This document shows positions 47,860 to 59,387 of a stretch of DNA of 64,000 bases, in pieces; position 1 is the first letter of the stretch; each line of letters begins with the position of its first letter. This stretch comes from Betaproteobacteria bacterium HGW-Betaproteobacteria-7 (GTDB taxonomy: Bacteria > Pseudomonadota > Gammaproteobacteria > Burkholderiales > Rhodocyclaceae). Under the pieces are notes generated by a model that was not told the DNA's origin, did not search any database, and was given only the letters and a program-made list of their open reading frames with translations. Location: positions 62,001-126,000 of the forward strand of contig PHCE01000012.1 in the NCBI GenBank assembly GCA_002840765.1. Direction: 5' to 3'. Made by a program: the position numbers and the translations under genes.

Positions 47860-47942
47860 GGTCTACCTCCTGGAACGGTCTGCCGGCGTTGCTTTCCGCC
47901 TTGTTCAGGGTCATGCTACGCCAACTCGGGAGGATTTCAAAC

Positions 47943-49355
47943 ATGCGTCTGGGTTTTCACGGAGCAGCCGGCGAGGTCACCGGTTCCTGCACTTTGGTCG
48001 AGGTGGCAGGCTGCCGTTTCCTGGTCGATTGCGGCATGTTTCAGGGTGGTTCGGAGGCGCGCAGCAAGAACCAGCGGGCGCTGAACTTCGGCTTCGATGT
48101 ACGCAAGCTTGATTTCGTCCTGCTTACCCATGCTCACATAGATCATTCCGGGCTGTTGCCGCGCCTGGCCATGCTCGGCTATCGCGGCCCGATCTACGCC
48201 ACGCCGGCGACTATCGACCTGCTCGCAGTACTGCTGCCGGACAGCGCCCATATCCAGGAGAAGGAAAGCGAATGGCTGCTGCGCAACCGCCACCGGCGCG
48301 GCAAGGGGGAGCGCGGCATTCCGGCGCCGCTGTATTCGGTTGAGCAGGCGCTGGCGACCCTGCGCCTGCTGCGGCCGGTGGCTTACGGCGAGGAGTTGCG
48401 GCCGGCGGACGGCGTGAACGTCCGCTTCCATGATGCCGGGCATATTCTCGGTTCGTCCTGGCTGGAAGTGCTGGTCAGCGGCGAGGGCAAGCCCCGGCGC
48501 CTGATCTTTTCCGGCGATCTCGGCCAGCCCGAGCGGCCGGTGCTGCACGATCCCGAAAAACCCGGCGGCAGCGCCGATGTGCTGCTGATCGAATCGACCT
48601 ATGGCGACCGCCGCCATCGTTCGCTGGGGGAAACCGAGGACGAGATTGTCGATGTCGTCGAACGGACTCGGGCGGCCGGCGGCAACCTGATCATCCCGGC
48701 CTTCGCCGTCGGTCGCACGCAGGAAATCATCTACCTGCTGGCCGGCCTGGTGCGCAGTCAGCGCCTGCGGCCGCTGAAGGTCTATGTCGATTCACCAATG
48801 GCCAACACGGCGACGCGTATCACGCTCAACCACAAGGAACTGCTCGATGGCGAAACGCGCGAACTGATCGCCTGGCAGCAGGCGCATCCGGAAAAGATGA
48901 AGCTGGAATTCGTTGCCGATGTTGAACGTTCCAAGTCGCTCAACGCCATCCGCAGCGGCGCCGTCATCATTTCGGCCAGCGGCATGTGCGAGGCCGGACG
49001 GATCAAGTACCACCTGCGCGAGAACCTGCCGCGCCGCGAATGCAGCATCCTGATCGCCGGTTTCCAGGCGGCCGGCACGCTTGGTCGGCGGCTGGTGGAT
49101 GGGGCGCGCCTGGTGCGCATCTTTGGTCAGCAGGTGCCGGTGCGCGCCCGCATCGCCACCGTCGGCGGCCTGTCCGCCCATGCCGACCAGGCGGCACTGC
49201 TCGACTGGCTGGGTGGTTTTCGCCAGGCACCGCGCCATGTCTTTGTTATGCATGGCGAAGCCGGCTCATCGGCCGCATTCACCGCGGCGATCAAGGAACG
49301 TCATGGCTGGCCGGAGGTGCGTCCGCCGCTCCCCGGCGAGTCCGTCAGCCTGTAA
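47943..49355 (+). CDS. Beta-CASP metallo-beta-lactamase exonuclease-like protein
   Basis: MBL-fold RNA-processing exonuclease-like protein (470 aa, YSH1/CPSF type). The metal site HAHIDHSG lies near residue 60, DAGHILGSSWLEV and FSGDLGQPERP follow, and the beta-CASP insertion reads PAFAVGRTQEIIYLL and YVDSPMANTATRI. The C-terminal motifs are SASGMCEAGRIKYHL and GGLSAHADQAALLDWL. GGGAGG precedes the ATG at 47943; an upstream in-frame ATG at 47889 lies in the shared promoter region. It is 37 nt before phaC. Confidence 0.9.
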   Translation: MRLGFHGAAGEVTGSCTLVEVAGCRFLVDCGMFQGGSEARSKNQRALNFGFDVRKLDFVLLTHAHIDHSGLLPRLAMLGYRGPIYATPATIDLLAVLLPDSAHIQEKESEWLLRNRHRRGKGERGIPAPLYSVEQALATLRLLRPVAYGEELRPADGVNVRFHDAGHILGSSWLEVLVSGEGKPRRLIFSGDLGQPERPVLHDPEKPGGSADVLLIESTYGDRRHRSLGETEDEIVDVVERTRAAGGNLIIPAFAVGRTQEIIYLLAGLVRSQRLRPLKVYVDSPMANTATRITLNHKELLDGETRELIAWQQAHPEKMKLEFVADVERSKSLNAIRSGAVIISASGMCEAGRIKYHLRENLPRRECSILIAGFQAAGTLGRRLVDGARLVRIFGQQVPVRARIATVGGLSAHADQAALLDWLGGFRQAPRHVFVMHGEAGSSAAFTAAIKERHGWPEVRPPLPGESVSL

Positions 49356-49392: not shown

Positions 49393-51141
49393 ATGTCTGG
49401 CAATACATCGGCAAGGAACGGCAGCGTCAACATGCATGCACACAGCCCGCTGGAAAGTCTGGGTGATTCGGTGAGCAAGGCCATCGATCCCTACGGCGTG
49501 ACCACTTCACTGCTCAACGCGCAGATGGCCTGGCTGCTCCACCCGCAGGAACTGGCGCGAGCGCTCAATTCCCTGTCCGCCGATCTTATTGCCCTGCAGT
49601 CGCACGTCATGAACCGGGCCGTCGGCATCGCCTCGCCCGATGTCATCAAGCCAAATGCCGACGATGCCCGTTTCGCCGACCCGATCTGGACTGACTCGGC
49701 CACCTGGGACATCATCAAGGAGTGGTACCTGGCCTTCACCCACCATCTCGAGGACATGCTCTTCGAGACCCCGGGGCTGTCGGACAAGGAGCGCCGGCGC
49801 TCTGCCTTCTGGCTGCGCAACTGGCTGAACATGGTGGCGCCGACCAATTTCTTCTGGTTCAACCCGGCGGCCATGCGTCGCTTCGTCGAAACCAACGGCG
49901 ACAGCCTCAAGCAAGGCTGGGAAAACCTGCAGCGCGACATCAAGGCGAAGAACATCCTGATGGTCGAGCCGGATGCCTTCACCGTCGGCAAGGATCTGGC
50001 GACGACACCGGGCAAGGTGGTGTTCCGCAACCGCCTGCTCGAACTGATCCATTACGCGCCGACCACCGAGCAGGTGCGGGCAATGCCCATCGTCATCACC
50101 ACGCCGTGGATCAACAAGTTCTACATCCTCGACCTGACGGCGCGCAAGAGCCTGGTCAAGCACCTGACCGATCAGGGTTTCTCGGTGTTCATCACCAGCT
50201 GGAAGAATCCGGATGAAAGTCTGGCCGAAATCCGCTTCGACGACTATCTGGAGGAAGGCGTCGCCGAGGCCGTGCGCGTCGCCTGCGAGTTCTGCAAGGT
50301 GCCGCAGGTCCATCTGGTCGGCTACTGCATCGGCGGCACGCTGGTCAGCACCTACATGGCCTGGGCCAACAAGCGCTATGCTGCCGACAAGATGCCGGTC
50401 GCCCACTGGACGCTGTTCACCACCCTGACCGATTTCGCTCATCCTGGCGATATCGACGTCTTCATCGACGAGTCGTGCATCAACGCACTGGAAGAATCGA
50501 TGGCCAAAAAGGGCTTTCTCGACGGCAACGAGATGGCGGCTTCCTTCCGCATGTTGCGTTCGAACAGCCTGATCTGGAACTACTGGGTCAACAGCTACCT
50601 GCTCGGCGAGAACCTGCCGGCTTTCGACGTGCTGTTCTGGAACATGGACTCGACGCGCATGCCGCAGGCCATGCATTCCTACTATCTGCGCGAGATGTAC
50701 CTGCACAACAACCTGATCAAACGCGACAAACTCAGCATTGCCGGCGAGGACATCGACCTCGACCGCATCACCCAGCCGCTCTACGTGGTGACCGCCGAGG
50801 ACGATCACATTGCGCCGTGGAAGCAGTGCTACCGCATCCGCAAACAGATCAACGTGGCGGCCCCGGTGCGCTTCGTGCTGTCAACCTCCGGCCACATCCT
50901 CGGCATCGTCAATCCGCCGGCCAAACCGCCCAAGCGGGCCTATTGGATCGCCGAGCCGGAGCGCAACGAGCACTGGGAGCACTGGTTCGAGCGTGCCGAG
51001 AAGAAGCCGGGCACCTGGTGGGAAGACTGGACGCGCTGGCTGGGTGAGCGCAGCGGCCCGCTGGTCGAGGCCTATCCGGCCGCCAATCGCAAGTTCCCGG
51101 CCCTGGGTGAGGCACCTGGCAGCTACGTTCTCGAGAAATGA
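49393..51141 (+). CDS. phaC: Class I poly(3-hydroxyalkanoate) synthase
   Basis: PHA synthase (582 aa) that polymerises 3-hydroxyacyl-CoA into storage granules. The lipase-like box is GYCIGG with the nucleophile Cys312. Asp471 (AEDDHIAPW) and His501 (STSGHILGIVNPP) complete the triad. The N-terminal 200 residues carry the class I conserved region (FNPAAMRRFVETNG). It overlaps the next gene as ATGA. phaA is at 14.6 kb; phaB, phaR and phasins are not seen nearby. Confidence 0.95.
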   Translation: MSGNTSARNGSVNMHAHSPLESLGDSVSKAIDPYGVTTSLLNAQMAWLLHPQELARALNSLSADLIALQSHVMNRAVGIASPDVIKPNADDARFADPIWTDSATWDIIKEWYLAFTHHLEDMLFETPGLSDKERRRSAFWLRNWLNMVAPTNFFWFNPAAMRRFVETNGDSLKQGWENLQRDIKAKNILMVEPDAFTVGKDLATTPGKVVFRNRLLELIHYAPTTEQVRAMPIVITTPWINKFYILDLTARKSLVKHLTDQGFSVFITSWKNPDESLAEIRFDDYLEEGVAEAVRVACEFCKVPQVHLVGYCIGGTLVSTYMAWANKRYAADKMPVAHWTLFTTLTDFAHPGDIDVFIDESCINALEESMAKKGFLDGNEMAASFRMLRSNSLIWNYWVNSYLLGENLPAFDVLFWNMDSTRMPQAMHSYYLREMYLHNNLIKRDKLSIAGEDIDLDRITQPLYVVTAEDDHIAPWKQCYRIRKQINVAAPVRFVLSTSGHILGIVNPPAKPPKRAYWIAEPERNEHWEHWFERAEKKPGTWWEDWTRWLGERSGPLVEAYPAANRKFPALGEAPGSYVLEK

Positions 51142-51767
51142 GCACGGCCACGGCGCTGACGGTGGGCGCGACAGCGTCCGCAGCCGGCGCCGACCTGTTG
51201 CGTATCGTCCGCATCAACGAGCAGATCAAACGCGTCGTCGGTGTTTCCTTCAAGATCAACATCATGGCGCTCAACGCCATCTTCCTGGCCAAGCGGGCGG
51301 GCACGGCGGCCCTCGGCTTCGGTGTGCTGTCCAATGAGCTGCGCGTCTTCTCCCAGGAGTTGCGCGATTGCATGAGCGGGCTGAATGGCCTGATCCACGC
51401 CAGCGTCAACGAGGTTTCGATCATTCTGCGCAATGGTCGTCAGGACCGCCTGCTTGGCGAACTCGCCAAGGGCGGCGCAGTGTTGCCGCTGGTCAGCGGC
51501 GTCCTTGAACGCCGTGCCGGCGAGCGGTCGGCCCATGCCAAGCGGCTCGCCGACTTGCGCCGACAGTTGAAGCGCGCTCTCGAGGATGCCTTCCAACTGG
51601 TCGAACTGGGCGGTGTCCTGGCCAAATCGGCGAAAATCGAGGCGGCCTACGGACAGAGCTTCGCCGCTTCGCTGACCCAGGTTTCATCAGAATTCGACGG
51701 CATCGTCGAAGAGATTCGCGGTGCCCTCGAGTCGCTGCGCCATTCGCCCTTCTTTGCCAGCAAATGA
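51138..51767 (+). CDS. Soluble methyl-accepting-like hairpin protein
   Basis: A 209-aa cytosolic protein. Residues 25-75 resemble the tip of a chemoreceptor signalling hairpin (INEQIKRVVGVSFKINIMALNAIF..RAGTAALGFGVLSNELR). The receptor consensus at this place is I-x2-IA-x-QTNLLALNAAIEAARAGE-x-GRGFAVVA-EVR, so the CheA/CheW contact region is preserved but modified. The remainder is a helical coiled-coil-like tail with no membrane segment. Its start overlaps phaC by 4 nt. It precedes a di-metal ODP-like protein, and chemoreceptor partners of that type are known in other bacteria. Confidence 0.7.
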   Translation: MSTATALTVGATASAAGADLLRIVRINEQIKRVVGVSFKINIMALNAIFLAKRAGTAALGFGVLSNELRVFSQELRDCMSGLNGLIHASVNEVSIILRNGRQDRLLGELAKGGAVLPLVSGVLERRAGERSAHAKRLADLRRQLKRALEDAFQLVELGGVLAKSAKIEAAYGQSFAASLTQVSSEFDGIVEEIRGALESLRHSPFFASK

Positions 51768-51786
51768 TGCCCACCGGAGCCGTTTC

Positions 51787-52524
51787 GTGAAGACGACCAA
51801 GACCATATTCCAGGACGGCGACCACCGCTGGCTGGCCATTGTCCGTGACCCCGACAAGCCAAACTACCTGATCGATACCAACGAATACCTGGTCACCCAT
51901 GGCGATCGCGGCCTGCTCGTCGATCCCGGCGGTGCCGAGATCTTTCCTGCGGTCTTTTCGGCGCTGTCGGCGGAGTTCGATCCGTCGGCGCTGAGCGGCA
52001 TGTTCGCCTCGCACCAGGATCCGGACTGCTGCTCATCGTTGGCCCTGTGGCTGGAATTCAACCCGGCCATGCGCTGCTACGTGAGCTGGATGTGGAGCGG
52101 TTTTCTGCCGCACTTCGGCGGCAGCGGCGAAACCTTCGTGGCGATCCCCGACGAGGGCATGGAAATTCCGGTGGACACCCTGATGCTGCAGGCCATTCCG
52201 GCGCATTACCTGCATTCCTCCGGCAATTTTCATCTCTACGACAAGGTCGCCCGCCTGCTGTTCTCCGGCGATGTCGGCGCCGCCCTGCTGCCGCCGGGCA
52301 TGGATGGCCTGTACGTGAACAACTTCGATGCCCACATCCGGCATGCCGAAGCCTTCCACAAACGCTGGATGGGTTCCAACGAAGCCAAGCGCCGTTGGTG
52401 CGAGCGGGCCAGCGGCATGGCCATCGACCTGCTCTGCCCGCAGCACGGCGCCATCTATACCGGCCCGGACGTCGAACGCTTCATCAACTGGTTCGACGAG
52501 TTGCCGGTAGGGCTGGCAGTGTGA
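51787..52524 (+). CDS. ODP-like di-metal metallo-beta-lactamase fold protein
   Basis: Flavodiiron-related MBL-fold protein without a flavodoxin domain (245 aa). The family metal motif is H76-x-D78-x-D80 in SHQDPDCCSSL, where flavodiiron enzymes have H-x-E-x-D-H. Further ligands are likely in HYLHSSGNFHLYD, LLFSGDVG and CPQHGAIY. It resembles oxygen-binding di-iron proteins (ODP) that sense oxygen or iron for chemotaxis. The GTG at 51787 has GGAG 7 nt upstream. It follows the MCP-hairpin gene by 19 nt and precedes a hemerythrin gene. Confidence 0.78.
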   Translation: MKTTKTIFQDGDHRWLAIVRDPDKPNYLIDTNEYLVTHGDRGLLVDPGGAEIFPAVFSALSAEFDPSALSGMFASHQDPDCCSSLALWLEFNPAMRCYVSWMWSGFLPHFGGSGETFVAIPDEGMEIPVDTLMLQAIPAHYLHSSGNFHLYDKVARLLFSGDVGAALLPPGMDGLYVNNFDAHIRHAEAFHKRWMGSNEAKRRWCERASGMAIDLLCPQHGAIYTGPDVERFINWFDELPVGLAV

Positions 52525-52607
52525 ACGCGGGGTTTTGACTCCGGTCAAGGAGCTGCCTTGGTGCTGCCCGCAGAATGGACGCACCGTACAACGCCCAGAG
52601 CAGCTTA

Positions 52608-53054
52608 ATGACCACAATCCGCACTTTCATGACCGATGATCACCGCCATTGCGACGATCTGCTGGCCGAAGCCGAGCAGGCCATGGCCAAAGGCAATCTC
52701 GAGGCCGGCAAGGCGGCTTTCGGGCATTTCGCCACGGCTCTGCTGGCTCATTTTGCCGCCGAGGAAAAAACGCTGTTTCCATCCTTTGAGGTGAAGACCG
52801 GCATGAGCATGGGGCCGACCCGGGTCATGCGCCTGGAACACGAACAGATGCGCAGCCTGCTCGCCGATGCCCAGGCCGCCCTGGCGGCCGGTGACGGCGA
52901 CGATTACATCGGCTGCGCCGAAACCCTGCTGATCATGATGCAGCAGCACAACCTGAAGGAAGAAAACATGCTCTACCCGATGTGCGACGAGCATCTCGCC
53001 GCCGAATGCAGCGAACTGCTGCAGCATCTCGAAGCGGAGCTGGCCGAGGCATGA
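52608..53054 (+). CDS. Hemerythrin-domain protein
   Basis: Hemerythrin-like four-helix bundle (148 aa). Candidate di-iron ligands are visible: His12/His14 in MTDDHRHCDDLLAE, HFATALLAHFAAEEKTLFPSFE, LEHEQM and MQQHNLKEENMLYPMCDEH. Such proteins bind oxygen or nitric oxide, or repair iron-sulphur centres. MTTIRT at 52608 is taken as the start; an upstream ATG at 52575 also lacks a good ribosome site. It overlaps the next gene as ATGA. Confidence 0.87.
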   Translation: MTTIRTFMTDDHRHCDDLLAEAEQAMAKGNLEAGKAAFGHFATALLAHFAAEEKTLFPSFEVKTGMSMGPTRVMRLEHEQMRSLLADAQAALAAGDGDDYIGCAETLLIMMQQHNLKEENMLYPMCDEHLAAECSELLQHLEAELAEA

Positions 53055-53278
53055 GCCATCCAAAAACCCCGCATGTCGTCGATGCCCGCTACATGGAGCC
53101 GCCCGAGCCCTTCGTCCAGACCATGGAAATGCTCGACCGCTTGCAGCCTGGGGAGAAGATGCTGCTCCTGCTGTTCCGCGAACCGCATCCCCTGTACAAG
53201 GTATTGCGCCAGAACGGCCATGCCTACGAGAGCGAACTGCTGCCCGACGGCACCTTCGAAATCCTCATCTCGCGCTGA
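53051..53278 (+). CDS. DUF2249 domain-containing protein
   Basis: A 75-aa single-domain DUF2249 protein. It resembles TusA-like small alpha-beta domains: VVDARYMEPPEPFVQTMEMLDRL, the LLLLFREPHPLYKVLRQNGHAYES core and the C-terminal FEILI strand. DUF2249 domains are often encoded beside hemerythrins and nitrogen-oxide respiration genes. The start overlaps the hemerythrin stop by 4 nt, and the next gene's GTG follows its stop directly. Confidence 0.82.
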   Translation: MSHPKTPHVVDARYMEPPEPFVQTMEMLDRLQPGEKMLLLLFREPHPLYKVLRQNGHAYESELLPDGTFEILISR

Positions 53279-54586
53279 GTGTCGGCGATGCAGGGGGGGC
53301 TTTCCTTTGACAATGCGCCGCCGCTGGCGGCACCCCTGCGCTTTTTCCTGACGGCGCCGCTGTTCCTCGTTCTTGCCGGCCTGCTGCTGGTTTATGCCGG
53401 GCCGGACATCTTCGCCTCGCGCTGGTTGCCGGCGACGCTGGCCCTGGTGCATCTGATCACCATCGGCTTCATGCTGCAGGTGATGATCGGTGCCTTGCTC
53501 CAGGTGCTGCCGGTACTCGCCGGTGCCGATATCGGCCGGCCATTGCTGGTCGCCCGCCTCGTCCATCCGGCGCTGACACTGGGTACTCTGCTGTTGGCCG
53601 CCGGTTTCCTCAGTGCTTCGCCGTGGTTCTTTCGTCTGGCTGCCGTGTTGTTGTTGGCGGCCATCGCCGTTTTCCTGCTTGCCGCAGGGCGCGGACTGGC
53701 CGCGCAGCCGTCGACCAGTCCGACGATCCGCGGTCTCAAACTGTCCTTGCTCAGCCTGGCCGTCACCGTCGCCCTCGGCGTCACCCTGGCCCTCGGCCTG
53801 GCCCACGGCTGGAGTCTGCCCTACGCCGATCTGACCGACCTGCATGCTGGCTGGGGTTTGGGCGCCTGGGGCGGCGTTCTGCTCGCCGCCATGGCCTACG
53901 TCGTCGTCCCGATGTTCCAGCTGACACCCGGCTACCCGGCGCGTCCCAGCTGGTGGTTCCCGCCGCTGATCGTCATCTTGCTGTTGCTGTGGACGGTGGC
54001 CGCTGCCGGCGGCTGGCACTGGCTGGTGGCCGCCTGCCAGCTCGGGCTGGCCGCTGTCGGCTGCGCTTTTGCCGGACTGACCTTGCGCCTGCAGTTGCAG
54101 CGCCGTCGGGCCCGCGCCGATGCCACCAGCCGCTACTGGCAGAGCGGCTTGTTCGCCGCCATGGCGGCCCTGCTGATGCTCGCTGCCGCCACCCTGTGGC
54201 CGTCGCTCACCGAGTTGCCGGCGTGGACGCCGCTATTTGCCATCCTCTTGATCGCCGGCGCCTTCGTTTCCTTCATCGCCGGCATGCTCTACAAGATCGT
54301 GCCCTTCCTCGCCTGGCTGCACCTGCAACATGGCATCCAGGTCGGCATGCCGGCGCCGAACATGAACCGCCTGCTCGCCGATTCGGCCATGCAGCGGCAG
54401 ATGCGCGCCCATCAACTGGCGCTGGCGCTGCTGGTCGCTGCCGCCTTCCTGCCCGACTGGCTGGCCCGGCCGGCAGGTGGTGCCTTGGCCGTGGCCGGCG
54501 GCTGGTTGTTCTGGAACCTGCTGCAGGCAGCGCTGCGTTACCGCCAGCAGGCCGCCGCCATCGTTGCCCGGCAGGAGGCAGCTTGA
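53279..54586 (+). CDS. 12-TM membrane protein, NnrS/heme-copper oxidase subunit I-like
   Basis: Integral membrane protein (435 aa) with about twelve helices. Histidines sit at helix positions (ALVHLITIGFMLQVMIGALL, LVHPALTLG, LHAGWGLGAWGGVLL, LHLQHG), as in the NnrS/heme-copper oxidase subunit I superfamily. This suggests heme or metal binding and a link to nitric oxide or oxygen. The GTG start directly follows the DUF2249 stop; an ATG three codons later is possible. Exact family membership is not certain. It overlaps the SirB2 gene by 4 nt. Confidence 0.65.
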   Translation: MSAMQGGLSFDNAPPLAAPLRFFLTAPLFLVLAGLLLVYAGPDIFASRWLPATLALVHLITIGFMLQVMIGALLQVLPVLAGADIGRPLLVARLVHPALTLGTLLLAAGFLSASPWFFRLAAVLLLAAIAVFLLAAGRGLAAQPSTSPTIRGLKLSLLSLAVTVALGVTLALGLAHGWSLPYADLTDLHAGWGLGAWGGVLLAAMAYVVVPMFQLTPGYPARPSWWFPPLIVILLLLWTVAAAGGWHWLVAACQLGLAAVGCAFAGLTLRLQLQRRRARADATSRYWQSGLFAAMAALLMLAAATLWPSLTELPAWTPLFAILLIAGAFVSFIAGMLYKIVPFLAWLHLQHGIQVGMPAPNMNRLLADSAMQRQMRAHQLALALLVAAAFLPDWLARPAGGALAVAGGWLFWNLLQAALRYRQQAAAIVARQEAA

Positions 54587-54954
54587 GCTATCTCGCCCTG
54601 AAGCACCTGCACGTTACTTGCGTCGTGCTCAGCGGCCTCGGTTTCTGCTTGCGTGGTTGGTGGATGGCGACAGCGTCGCCGCGACTGCTGGCACGGCTGA
54701 CGCGGGTGCTGCCGCATGTGATCGACAGCACGCTGCTCGGCAGCGCCTTGGTCATGGCCTGGATGAGCGGCCAGTATCCCTTCGTTCACGGCTGGCTGAC
54801 GGCCAAGGTACTCGGCCTGCTCGCCTACATCCTGCTCGGCGCCATGGCCCTCAAGCGGGCGCCGACGCGCGCCGCCCGTTTGCGCTTCTTCGTGCTGGCG
54901 CTGCTCGCTTACGCCTACATCGTTGGCGTCGCGCTGACCCGCAATCCCTTGCTG

Positions 54955-54960
<6 letters not shown>
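54583..54960 (+). CDS. SirB2 family membrane protein
   Basis: A 125-aa membrane protein of the SirB2 family with four helices. LALKHLHVTCVVLSGLGFCLRGWWM at the N-terminus, LPHVIDSTLLGSALVMAW and WLTAKVLGLLAYILLGAMAL are typical. The start is TTG at 54583 with AGGAGG 4 nt upstream, overlapping the previous stop (TTGA). Function is unknown. Its stop overlaps the end of the convergent regulator gene by 6 nt. Confidence 0.82.
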
Positions 54961-56934
<1,974 letters not shown>

Positions 56935-57106
56935 CTCTCCTCCAGCCACTCAACTTGCATTTTTGTTATTTTTCTGCTTCATAACGTAGCACCTGCCCAT
57001 TTAATAAGCAATGCGCTGAACAATTCCGTTGCTACTCTCGCAAATGGCGTGCCAAGCGATGTCGGTTGGACTGCAGCGACGGCGCCATCGTTCAAGCCAT
57101 GTTGTC

Positions 57107-57121
57107 TTGCTCAGCGAGCAA
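57107..57121. promoter_or_regulatory. Inverted repeat next to the pedF promoter
   Basis: TTGCTC-AGC-GAGCAA is a perfect 6-bp dyad ending 2 nt before the -24 element. Its position suggests a modulator of the promoter. The remaining 56935-57106 sequence holds no clear enhancer pair. Confidence 0.35.
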
Positions 57122-57122
57122 C

Positions 57123-57137
57123 TGGCACAGGCTTTGC
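57123..57137 (+). promoter_or_regulatory. Sigma-54 (-24/-12) promoter of the pedF operon
   Basis: TGGCAC-AGGCT-TTGC is an exact match to TGGCAC-N5-TTGC. It lies 49 nt before the pedF start, opposite a divergent sigma-54 activator gene. Confidence 0.82.
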
Positions 57138-57186
57138 AGACAGGTCTCCCACAAGCTGTCCATTCGCATTCACCAAAGGAGACCCC

Positions 57187-57615
57187 GTGAAGCACTCAAC
57201 CCAAACCCTCGGCGCCTTGCTCGCCGCTCTGTTCCTCGCCGCGCAAGTGCCGGCGGCCCTTGCCCACGGCGACGTGGTACCGCAGGCGGTCGATACCACC
57301 GGCCTGAAGAAGCTCGGTGCCGACTGGCAGACGGCCAATCCCTACCGCGAGGAGAAGACGGCGATCCGTATCGGCGACTCCGCCTACAACCAGAATTGCG
57401 CCCGCTGCCACGGCCTCGGTGGCGTCTCCGGCGGTATCGCCCCGGACCTCCGTTACCTGCCGAAGGGCGACGAAGGTGACGAAATCTTCCTGCAACGCAT
57501 CCGCAAGGGGGCCGTTCGTGATGGCCGTGTGTACATGCCGCCGTTCGAGGAAACCCTGAGTCAGGAAGCCATGTGGGCGATCCGCGCCTGGCTGGAGACC
57601 GTCCATGAAGAATGA
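57187..57615 (+). CDS. pedF: Cytochrome c-550 PedF-like
   Basis: Periplasmic c-type cytochrome (142 aa). A Sec signal peptide ends at ALA-H (residue 26/27). The heme site is NCARCHG (Cys71, Cys74, His75), with the distal Met probably in VYMPPFEE. PedF-like cytochromes take electrons from PQQ-dependent alcohol dehydrogenases. The GTG start has AAAGGAGA about 5 nt upstream. It overlaps the next gene by 11 nt and is the first gene of a sigma-54-controlled operon. No quinoprotein ethanol dehydrogenase gene is in the operon. Confidence 0.9.
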   Translation: MKHSTQTLGALLAALFLAAQVPAALAHGDVVPQAVDTTGLKKLGADWQTANPYREEKTAIRIGDSAYNQNCARCHGLGGVSGGIAPDLRYLPKGDEGDEIFLQRIRKGAVRDGRVYMPPFEETLSQEAMWAIRAWLETVHEE

Positions 57616-58450
57616 TCGCCGCCGCTGCCTGCGCGCCCTCGTCGCGCTGCCTCTGAGCCTGGCCCTGCCGGCAATCGCCGATGCGCTGGAAACCGTGCGC
57701 CAGCGCGGCCGCCTGCGCATCGCCATCTACAATGATTTTCCGCCGTATTCGCTGCGCGGCGGCAAGGGCATCGACGCCGACATCGGCCGCGCCATCGCCG
57801 CCCGCATGGGAGTCGCCGCCGAAATCGTCGGTTTCAATGCCGATGAGGACATGAACGACGACCTGCGCAACATGGTCTGGAAAGGCCACTATCTCGGCAC
57901 CCAGCCGGCGGATGTGATGCTGCACGTGCCGGTAGATGAAGTCCTGGCGCGGGCCAACGACAAGGTCCGCATCTTCGGTGCCTACCATCGCGAGACCCTG
58001 GCTGTGGCGCGCAATCCGCAGCGCGTGCCGGCGCTGTCCGGCTCGGCGGCGATGGCCCTGGAAGTGTTCACCCGCGAGAAGATAGGCGTCGAAACGGCCT
58101 CGCTGGCCGACTCCTTCCTGCTCAGCGCCCTCAACGGTCGGTTGCGCGAAAACGTCGTCCATTTCACTACCGTTGCCGAGGCCGGCCAGGCCCTGGCGGC
58201 CGGCAGCATCGCCGCCGTGCTGGCGCCGCGCGCCGAGCTGGAGGCGGCGATCAAGGGGCAGGAGCGGGTGGTCATCGATAGTGCCAAGTTCGCCGAACTG
58301 AAGGTCGATAGCTGGCCGCTCGGCATGGCCGTCAAGGCCGAGGAACAGCCGCTGGCCGAAGCGCTGGCCGCTGCCCTTGGCGAACTCAAGCGCGACGGCA
58401 GCATCGCCGCCATCTTCCGCCAGTACGGCATCACCCATCACGCCGCCTGA
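57605..58450 (+). CDS. Periplasmic substrate-binding protein (family 3-like), PQQ-associated
   Basis: ABC-type solute-binding protein-like (281 aa) with a signal peptide (LRALVALPLSLALPAIADA). The core RGRLRIAIYNDFPPYSLRGGKGIDADIGRAIAARMGV is typical of amino-acid-type binding proteins. No ABC permease genes are nearby, so it probably serves the PQQ dehydrogenase system, as XoxJ-like proteins do beside methanol dehydrogenases. The start overlaps pedF by 11 nt. Ligand unknown. Confidence 0.82.
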   Translation: MKNDRRRCLRALVALPLSLALPAIADALETVRQRGRLRIAIYNDFPPYSLRGGKGIDADIGRAIAARMGVAAEIVGFNADEDMNDDLRNMVWKGHYLGTQPADVMLHVPVDEVLARANDKVRIFGAYHRETLAVARNPQRVPALSGSAAMALEVFTREKIGVETASLADSFLLSALNGRLRENVVHFTTVAEAGQALAAGSIAAVLAPRAELEAAIKGQERVVIDSAKFAELKVDSWPLGMAVKAEEQPLAEALAAALGELKRDGSIAAIFRQYGITHHAA

Positions 58451-58457
58451 GGTCAAC

Positions 58458-59387
58458 ATGCGCCTATTGCTCCCCCTCCTGGCCGTGCTGCTCGGCGGCA
58501 ACGCCGCCGCCGAACCGCTGGCCTACGTGCCGAACGAGAAGACGGCCAGCATCAGCATCATCGACACCGCCAGCGACGAGATACGCGGCGAATTCGCCAT
58601 CGGCCAGCGGCCGCGCGGCATCGCTGGCGGTGCCGGCCGGCTCTATCTGACCGACGGCAAGACTGGCAGCCTGCTGATCGTCGACAGTGCCGCCGGCAAG
58701 CTCGAACGCAGCGTGCCGGTCGGCGATTCGCCGGAAGGGGTCAGCCTGTCGGCCGATGGCAAGCTGCTGGCAGTGGCGCTCGAGGACGACAACAGCGTTG
58801 TCCTGCTCAGTGCGCCGGAAGGCCGCGAGCTGGCGCGCATCAAGGTCCAGGGGAAGAACCCGGAACATGCGGTGTTCAGCCCGGATGGCCGCTGGCTCTA
58901 TGTCAGTGCCGAGGAGGCCGAGCAGGTCGACGTCATCGACGTGGCGGCAAAGCGCCAGGTGGCCAGTATCGCCGTCGGCAAGCGGCCACGCGGCATCGGC
59001 TTCCTGCCTGACGGCAGCCTGGCCTATGTCGCCTGCGAGCTGGCCGGCAAGGTGTATGCGATCGATGTCGCCCGCCAGCAGACGATCGCCGAGATTCCGG
59101 CCGGCCAGTATCCGAACGGGATTGCCGTGCACCCCGACGGCAAGCGCGTCTTCGTCTCCAACGGCCGCGATGCCTCGGTAATGGCCATCGACGTCGCCAG
59201 CAACAAGGTGACGGCCACGGCGGCGGTCGGCAAGCGGCCGTGGAACATGGCGCTGACGCCGGATGGCAGCAAGCTCTATGTCGCCAACGGGCGTTCCGCC
59301 AGCGTTTCAGTGATCGATACCGGGCGCTTCGAGAAGCTGCGCGACATCGCCGTCGGCGAGCTGCCATGGGGCGTCAACATCCAATGA
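58458..59387 (+). CDS. PQQ-dependent catabolism-associated beta-propeller protein
   Basis: Periplasmic YVTN-type beta-propeller (309 aa, TIGR03866-like). A signal peptide (LLLPLLAVLLGGNAAAE) is followed by about seven repeats of the form AYVPNEKTASISIIDTASDEI, LYVSAEEAEQVDVIDVA and VFVSNGRDASVMAIDVA. Members occur with PQQ-dependent alcohol oxidation genes. The role is unknown, perhaps structural or as a redox partner. It lies 7 nt after the binding-protein gene and overlaps the cytochrome b561 gene by 4 nt. Confidence 0.87.
   Translation: MRLLLPLLAVLLGGNAAAEPLAYVPNEKTASISIIDTASDEIRGEFAIGQRPRGIAGGAGRLYLTDGKTGSLLIVDSAAGKLERSVPVGDSPEGVSLSADGKLLAVALEDDNSVVLLSAPEGRELARIKVQGKNPEHAVFSPDGRWLYVSAEEAEQVDVIDVAAKRQVASIAVGKRPRGIGFLPDGSLAYVACELAGKVYAIDVARQQTIAEIPAGQYPNGIAVHPDGKRVFVSNGRDASVMAIDVASNKVTATAAVGKRPWNMALTPDGSKLYVANGRSASVSVIDTGRFEKLRDIAVGELPWGVNIQ

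Follow-up and report, generated by a model that had tools for sequence, protein, structure and literature searches.

A short protein with chemoreceptor-tip homology accompanies one clade of oxygen-binding di-iron proteins and lies behind phaC in a Rhodocyclaceae genome

We analysed a window of 64,000 nucleotides from Betaproteobacteria bacterium HGW-Betaproteobacteria-7 (assembly GCA_002840765.1, contig PHCE01000012.1, positions 62,001 to 126,000), in which phaC, the gene of a polyhydroxyalkanoate (PHA) synthase, is followed by six genes. The first two encode a short protein related to the hairpin tip of methyl-accepting chemotaxis proteins (MCPs), called here the hairpin protein, and an oxygen-binding di-iron protein (ODP). 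Our main finding is that these two genes form a conserved pair belonging to one clade of the sampled ODPs, which lies within chemotaxis operons in some relatives and behind phaC in the loci near that of the window. We see about an even chance that the ODP is a sensor of O2 or nitric oxide (NO), that the hairpin protein is its relay and that the Che array is the most likely receiver.

The partnership was examined at several distances. In a search of 60 genomes of relatives, the own genome included, hairpin orthologues and ODPs of at least 63% identity occurred in an identical set of 28 genomes, and the two genes were adjacent in all 28 loci. Furthermore, named genomes were searched, and of the 125 relatives the best 80 were kept, among them records titled Dechloromonas, Azonexus, Azospira, Azovibrio, Zoogloea, Propionivibrio and Sulfuritalea. 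In all 80 of these loci the hairpin gene is followed directly by an ODP gene of the same orientation; both sets overlap in genomes, L003 and L033 for example looking like one contig. One genome (G050) carries an ODP of 48% identity and a diverged hairpin, which was missed by the orthologue search and recovered by a model of 57 hairpin rows at E 1e-11.

More distant ODP loci came from scans of 369 genomes of the class and 398 genomes of the phylum, part of which were fetched: 31 of the 32 class-scan ODPs of at least 300 bits (the window's own included) with some weaker ones, and at most 30 from the phylum scan. Using the 57-row model, which includes many of the hairpins that it counts and is to that extent circular, we found a hairpin upstream by rule in 43 of the 44 ODPs of at least 300 bits, the window's own excluded, and the 44th (L155) also has one, known from separate hairpin scans. 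Below 300 bits, only 2 of the 45 ODPs with room upstream had a hairpin, namely L158, where the ODP frame is cut off, and L226, where the hairpin-like gene is a fragment of 88 aa. A 28-row model, in which L113-L115 are themselves rows, had earlier picked up the hairpins of L113-L115 and L155-L184, with E-values of 5.1e-6 or lower. In a quick, unrooted IQ-TREE tree of 90 ODP rows, a single branch (SH-aLRT 96) separates the 45 hairpin-linked rows, which include L226, from all others, and hairpin linkage changed once on this tree versus a mean of 30.4 changes after shuffling. We read this unrooted tree as a single gain of the hairpin without loss in the sampled ODPs. The co-occurrence of hairpin and ODP genes that the preliminary description of this DNA had put up for checking is thus well conserved.

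The same description had assigned a chemoreceptor-type hairpin to the first protein, and this assignment stands by profile-profile comparison, although the single sequence stays below the Pfam cut-off. A total of 27 hairpins, drawn from the own genus and from three further families, could be aligned along the whole length. Residues 16-100 in the 28-row set matched 40 MCP tips with an hhalign probability of 99.2 (E 1.1e-19), and the 28-row profile, compared with solved structures, placed MCPs on top (1qu7, E 4.2e-10) and then the short receptor chains 3ur1 and 4jpb. The window's protein alone matched PF00015 (MCPsignal) in residues 26-94 only (E 4.5e-7), with 30.3 bits against a cut-off of 34.6; the hairpin of one relative (L113) exceeds this cut-off with 43.2 bits. 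Neither a sensor nor a HAMP domain was detected in the protein, and no phasin profile matched it, the Pfam search up to E 1 giving nothing besides MCPsignal and an ATP-grasp match due to chance. A role in defence was also considered and dropped, because PADLOC gave no match for P0001, P0002 or P0005.

The hairpin protein is likely, although not proved, to consist of tandem tips. Its second conserved block (GGVLAKSAKIEAAYG) matched the MCP tips with a probability of 1.4 when the 28-row set was used. With 57 diverse members the probability was 93 (E 3e-7) and the two halves matched each other in register with a probability of 73, these hhalign values coming from a one-profile comparison and being significant only with the 57-row set.

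The second gene encodes a true ODP. Its product matched PF19583 with 234.2 bits (curated cut-off 27.2), and the closest solved structures are the ODPs 6qrq (E 5.5e-65), named oxygen-binding diiron protein in the PDB and taken by us to be from Treponema denticola, and 6qnm (E 4.4e-54). The preliminary description had called the protein ODP-like and its HQDPD motif a departure; the first part was right, but both solved ODPs carry HQDPD too, so this is a mark of the family and not an odd motif. The residues H76, D78, D80, H143, D162 and H220 (numbered from GTG 51787), presumably metal ligands judging by flavodiiron spacing, are unchanged in 14 of 14 aligned ODP rows. The Pfam scan of the window's ODP gave no flavodoxin or further redox domain. 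The own genome has a second ODP paralogue of 34% identity (G000:C21:27688-28410; L032, L116), with no hairpin upstream. Outside the hairpin clade, 16 of the 18 loci from one family in another class of the phylum (L227-L241, L244) have, upstream of the ODP gene, a gene for a protein of 126-172 aa that is roadblock/LC7-like by eye and perhaps represents a second type of ODP partner.

Regarding the chemotaxis context, the pair is preceded by CheW and immediately followed by CheR in 8 of 34 hairpin-linked loci (L113, L154-L158, L161, L162), and this arrangement was seen in none of 23 others; the hairpins of L154 and L117 had been identified in scans other than this locus survey. The order in L113 is MCP-CheW-hairpin-ODP-CheR-CheD-CheB, each member confirmed by Pfam (the hairpin by PF00015), and the che assignments in the other seven loci are phmmer matches to the L113 proteins. 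The order varies, with CheB between CheW and the hairpin in L156 and two MCPs there in L158. One of the 23 non-hairpin loci (L120) has a CheB-like match 4.2 kb off. The own genome encodes CheA-type kinases.

A soluble receptor-like gene is coupled to the ODP gene, as in the pair known from T. denticola, and the adjacency of both genes, the single ODP branch and the CheW/CheR setting in some relatives support the idea of a sensor with its receptor. In our preferred reading, the ODP would take up O2 (or NO) at its di-iron site and change state. The hairpin protein would have arisen from a duplicated chemoreceptor tip as a single-chain piece and would be the dedicated partner that passes the signal on. 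The likeliest receiver would be the CheA/CheW apparatus, as in the chemotaxis operons of the relatives. In Rhodocyclales, the place of the pair behind phaC would mean joint production of the sensor and the polymer synthase. The adjoining unit of hemerythrin, DUF2249, many-transmembrane (TM) and SirB2 genes would stand under an FNR-type regulator and serve life with low oxygen or NO.

Several observations weigh against this reading. The window's hairpin reaches no cut-off in Pfam or NCBIfam, and the residues of its tips are altered. At the position of E385 (Tsr numbering) none of the 57 hairpins has E or any acidic residue in tip 1, and at that of E391 only 9 of 57 have E, or 20 of 57 when D is included. 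It is therefore doubtful that the hairpins pack like ordinary receptors and couple to CheA, even inside che operons. The hairpins depart from the combination of E385 and R388 in a single tip that is typical of MCPs; that all 40 comparison MCPs have E at 385 is not independent, because the pattern by which they were chosen demanded E or Q there. The two features are split between the halves: at position 388, tip 1 carries R in 48 of 57 rows, or in 52 if K is counted too (9 and 10 of 57 for tip 2), tip 2 carries E at position 385 in 53 of 57, and 51 of 57 rows unite a basic residue in tip 1 with an acidic one in tip 2. This split suggests, as a hypothesis, a single-chain stand-in for a receptor dimer. 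A bolder version, in which this pseudo-dimer with R in tip 1 and E in tip 2 would be the output adaptor of about 200 aa of the whole ODP clade, redirected in Rhodocyclales away from the chemotaxis array and towards PHA synthase, with carbon storage then controlled by oxygen state, strikes us as improbable.

The genomic setting also speaks on this side. The CheW/CheR arrangement is missing from 26 of the 34 hairpin-linked loci, and the window's pair, like 73 of the 80 named loci, goes with phaC rather than with che genes. Hairpin presence follows CheA only loosely: a CheA match above 40 bits was found in 24 of 25 genus genomes with a hairpin versus 6 of 11 without (p 0.006, ignoring kinship and with a threshold set after seeing the data), the sole hairpin genome lacking one (G001) being 70% complete. 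The output role that the preliminary description gave to the hairpin thus has the steady ODP partner, the tip homology and the che context of some relatives behind it, and lacks that context in the window itself.

The genes behind the pair are marked off by a putative regulatory site. All 66 loci with both genes have a perfect TTGAY-N4-RTCAA box of the FNR type between ODP and hemerythrin, its centre standing 52-80 bases ahead of hemerythrin Met12, a steady promoter distance. It is the only such box in the window (0.10 expected), and across the own genome 23 such sites were counted, the reversed control giving 6. Others are near ccoN, nirS for cytochrome cd1, napD, a hydrogenase subunit gene and another hemerythrin gene, and one is near a hemN-like radical-SAM gene that stands back to back with a Crp/Fnr-type gene; the remaining ones, in or beside genes without such a link, may be chance. 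Because of this conserved box, a second transcription unit probably begins at hemerythrin, and a single six-gene operon was discarded. The window's box is the exact form of TTGACnnnnGTCAA, the box of HcpR in some groups, and DNR binds the FNR-like box TTGATnnnnATCAA (PMC1274295). FNR/ANR, DNR or an HcpR-like protein are candidate regulators of the hemerythrin unit. In some relatives NnrS or a Crp/Fnr-type regulator is encoded between the many-TM gene and SirB2; Pfam supports the NnrS assignment in L074 and L089 and the regulator assignment in L093.

The linkage to phaC is the basis of the main rival explanation, in which the pair acts locally on the PHA synthase or the granule, the hairpin being an adaptor of receptor origin that links PhaC to oxygen state and takes no part in chemotaxis in this lineage. 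The synthase gene is upstream on the same strand in 73 of the 80 named loci, at 300 bases or less in 57, a share that is biased upward because these loci were picked by close similarity. In the window, its stop overlaps the hairpin start codon via ATGA, as read in the sequence. An FNR-type box upstream of phaC was found in 15 of 16 loci of a sister clade (defined by hairpins of at most 171 bits, a border chosen after seeing the data) versus 0 of 51 elsewhere, and the altered tip residues would suit such a local role as well. Nevertheless, the linkage was met only in loci near the window's, and the pair also occurs within che operons. Three Zoogloea loci (L109, L111, L112) have hairpin-ODP-SirB2 with neither phaC nor hemerythrin within the available DNA (L110 is alike, but its contig starts at the hairpin), and L026-L028 have the pair without phaC nearby. 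Moreover, in 14 of the 16 loci where the gap exceeds 300 bases a nitronate monooxygenase-like gene intervenes (L068, L073, L074, L082, L086, L093-L097, L102, L105, L106, L108; the identity was Pfam-confirmed in the two loci tested, L073 and L093). Gene order alone is what would couple the ODP sensor to the synthase, a contact between adaptor and PhaC is conjectural, and in Ca. Accumulibacter the phaC transcript did not respond to oxygen despite an FNR motif upstream in several genomes (PMC6446978). We consider this explanation unlikely.

Two further explanations start from the neighbouring genes. The preliminary description had taken phaC and all six genes as one co-regulated oxygen/redox module, and indeed they share a strand and tight spacing, their order is retained in most near relatives, and the sister clade has boxes at both phaC and hemerythrin. 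However, the box separates ODP from hemerythrin wherever both are present, it is absent from the phaC upstream regions outside the sister clade, and other lineages have the hairpin-ODP pair without phaC, hemerythrin and the rest; the single module was therefore given up as stated and seems quite improbable to us. Alternatively, the ODP could be mainly an enzyme handling O2 or NO, with the hairpin protein as a structural or assembly partner and the locus as a detoxification cluster. The adjoining box-controlled hemerythrin unit and the NnrS or Crp/Fnr-type genes of some relatives would fit this, whereas the ODP without a flavodoxin or redox domain, the che-operon setting of some relatives and the description of the T. 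denticola relative as a sensor (PMC7666581, PMC6978683) would not, and we give it little credence. The ODP as sensor with the hairpin protein as relay is the reading that we retain.

The features are collected in Table 1. The six open reading frames on one strand behind phaC lie where the preliminary description had placed them, and its hemerythrin, DUF2249 and SirB2 labels agree with the Pfam families. The starts of odp, the DUF2249 gene, P0005 and the SirB2 gene were revised from the sequence and the relatives, and hemerythrin probably starts at Met12 of its reading frame.

Table 1. Features of the phaC-hairpin-odp region, in window positions.
Feature	Position	Strand	Evidence and remarks
phaC, PHA synthase, class I type	49393..51141	+	PF07167 192.5 bits; TIGR01838 616.7 bits, just below cut-off 622.65
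Hairpin protein (P0001), 209 aa, likely tandem MCP-tip-like halves	51138..51767	+	Pfam, hhalign, alignment
Hairpin first tip, residues 41-69, NIMALNAIFLAKRAGTAALGFGVLSNELR	51258..51344	+	MCP tip homologue by hhalign
Hairpin second tip-like block, residues 156-173, ELGGVLAKSAKIEAAYGQ	51603..51656	+	hhalign, 57-row set
odp (P0002), oxygen-binding di-iron protein, 245 aa	51787..52524	+	PF19583, PDB relatives; GTG start
FNR-type box TTGACTCCGGTCAA	52535..52548	+	centre 66 bases ahead of hemerythrin Met12 (52608)
Hemerythrin (P0003)	52608..53054, frame opens 52575	+	Pfam; probable ATG start
DUF2249 protein (P0004)	53051..53278	+	Pfam; ATG start; ATGA overlap with hemerythrin stop
Hydrophobic many-TM protein (P0005)	53288..54586	+	no Pfam family; ATG start
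SirB2-family membrane protein (P0006)	54583..54960	+	Pfam SirB; TTG start

The many-TM protein P0005 could not be assigned: no Pfam family exceeded its cut-off for the window's protein, 14 members gave only a chance DUF5313 match at E 0.081, and the PDB gave no solved relative up to E 1. NnrS (PF05940) was tried and is unsupported, as there was no profile match and hhalign to 7 NnrS-locus rows gave a probability of 2.3. The family is conserved and hydrophobic, with invariant H58 and H189 (numbering from GTG 53279) and the motifs VVPMF and YKI-PF. Upstream, a gene at 47889-49355, by eye of the metallo-beta-lactamase RNA-exonuclease type, ends 37 bases ahead of phaC on the same strand. The gene row is ended by a sigma-54 regulator on the opposite strand (54955-56949, Pfam); beyond it, within 54955-59387, lies by eye a quinoprotein alcohol-oxidation-like cluster with a cytochrome c, a binding protein and a beta-propeller repeat protein.

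Parts of this locus resemble systems described before. The FNR regulon of Ca. Accumulibacter has, besides the motif at phaC, a hemerythrin under positive FNR control, and the available part of that paper mentions neither an ODP, nor a hairpin, nor the gene order of the window (PMC6446978). DrpA/DrpB and haloarchaeal DUF2249 proteins are induced or active in denitrification and linked to hemerythrins, with no mention of an ODP or a receptor-like partner in the part of the text available (PMC11218638).

The closest likeness is to T. denticola, where an ODP of the same family (TDE2498) is genetically coupled to TDE2496, a soluble MCP homologue without TM and sensing modules which modulates CheA (PMC7666581). 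The window's partner differs in being only about 200 aa long with two tip-like halves, below the Pfam MCP cut-off and beside phaC, and an effect on CheA is conjectural here. A review describes direct interaction of ODPs with cognate receptors (PMC6978683), and the ODP operon groups of Muok et al. 2019 include MCP genes in two gene orders, other signalling genes and fusions to signalling domains (PMC7319448). The pairing of ODP and MCP genes is therefore already known, and some short hairpins may have been counted as MCPs in those groups, since that of L113 passes the MCP cut-off. Our literature search, which did not cover the primary ODP paper, found no report of the hairpin-ODP-phaC arrangement, and we do not claim its absence from print. 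The apparent novelty lies in the short partner with its likely tandem tips, in its faithful association with a single ODP clade and in its place beside phaC. ODP sensing has been described for a spirochete (PMC7666581); here one ODP clade of Pseudomonadota, as sampled, is accompanied by a miniature receptor-derived partner, whose gene lies within chemotaxis operons or, among Dechloromonas-like bacteria, downstream of phaC. In this small system one can ask how a chemoreceptor tip receives its signal from a di-iron sensor, and strains of Dechloromonas and Azonexus would allow a test of whether PHA storage responds to oxygen.

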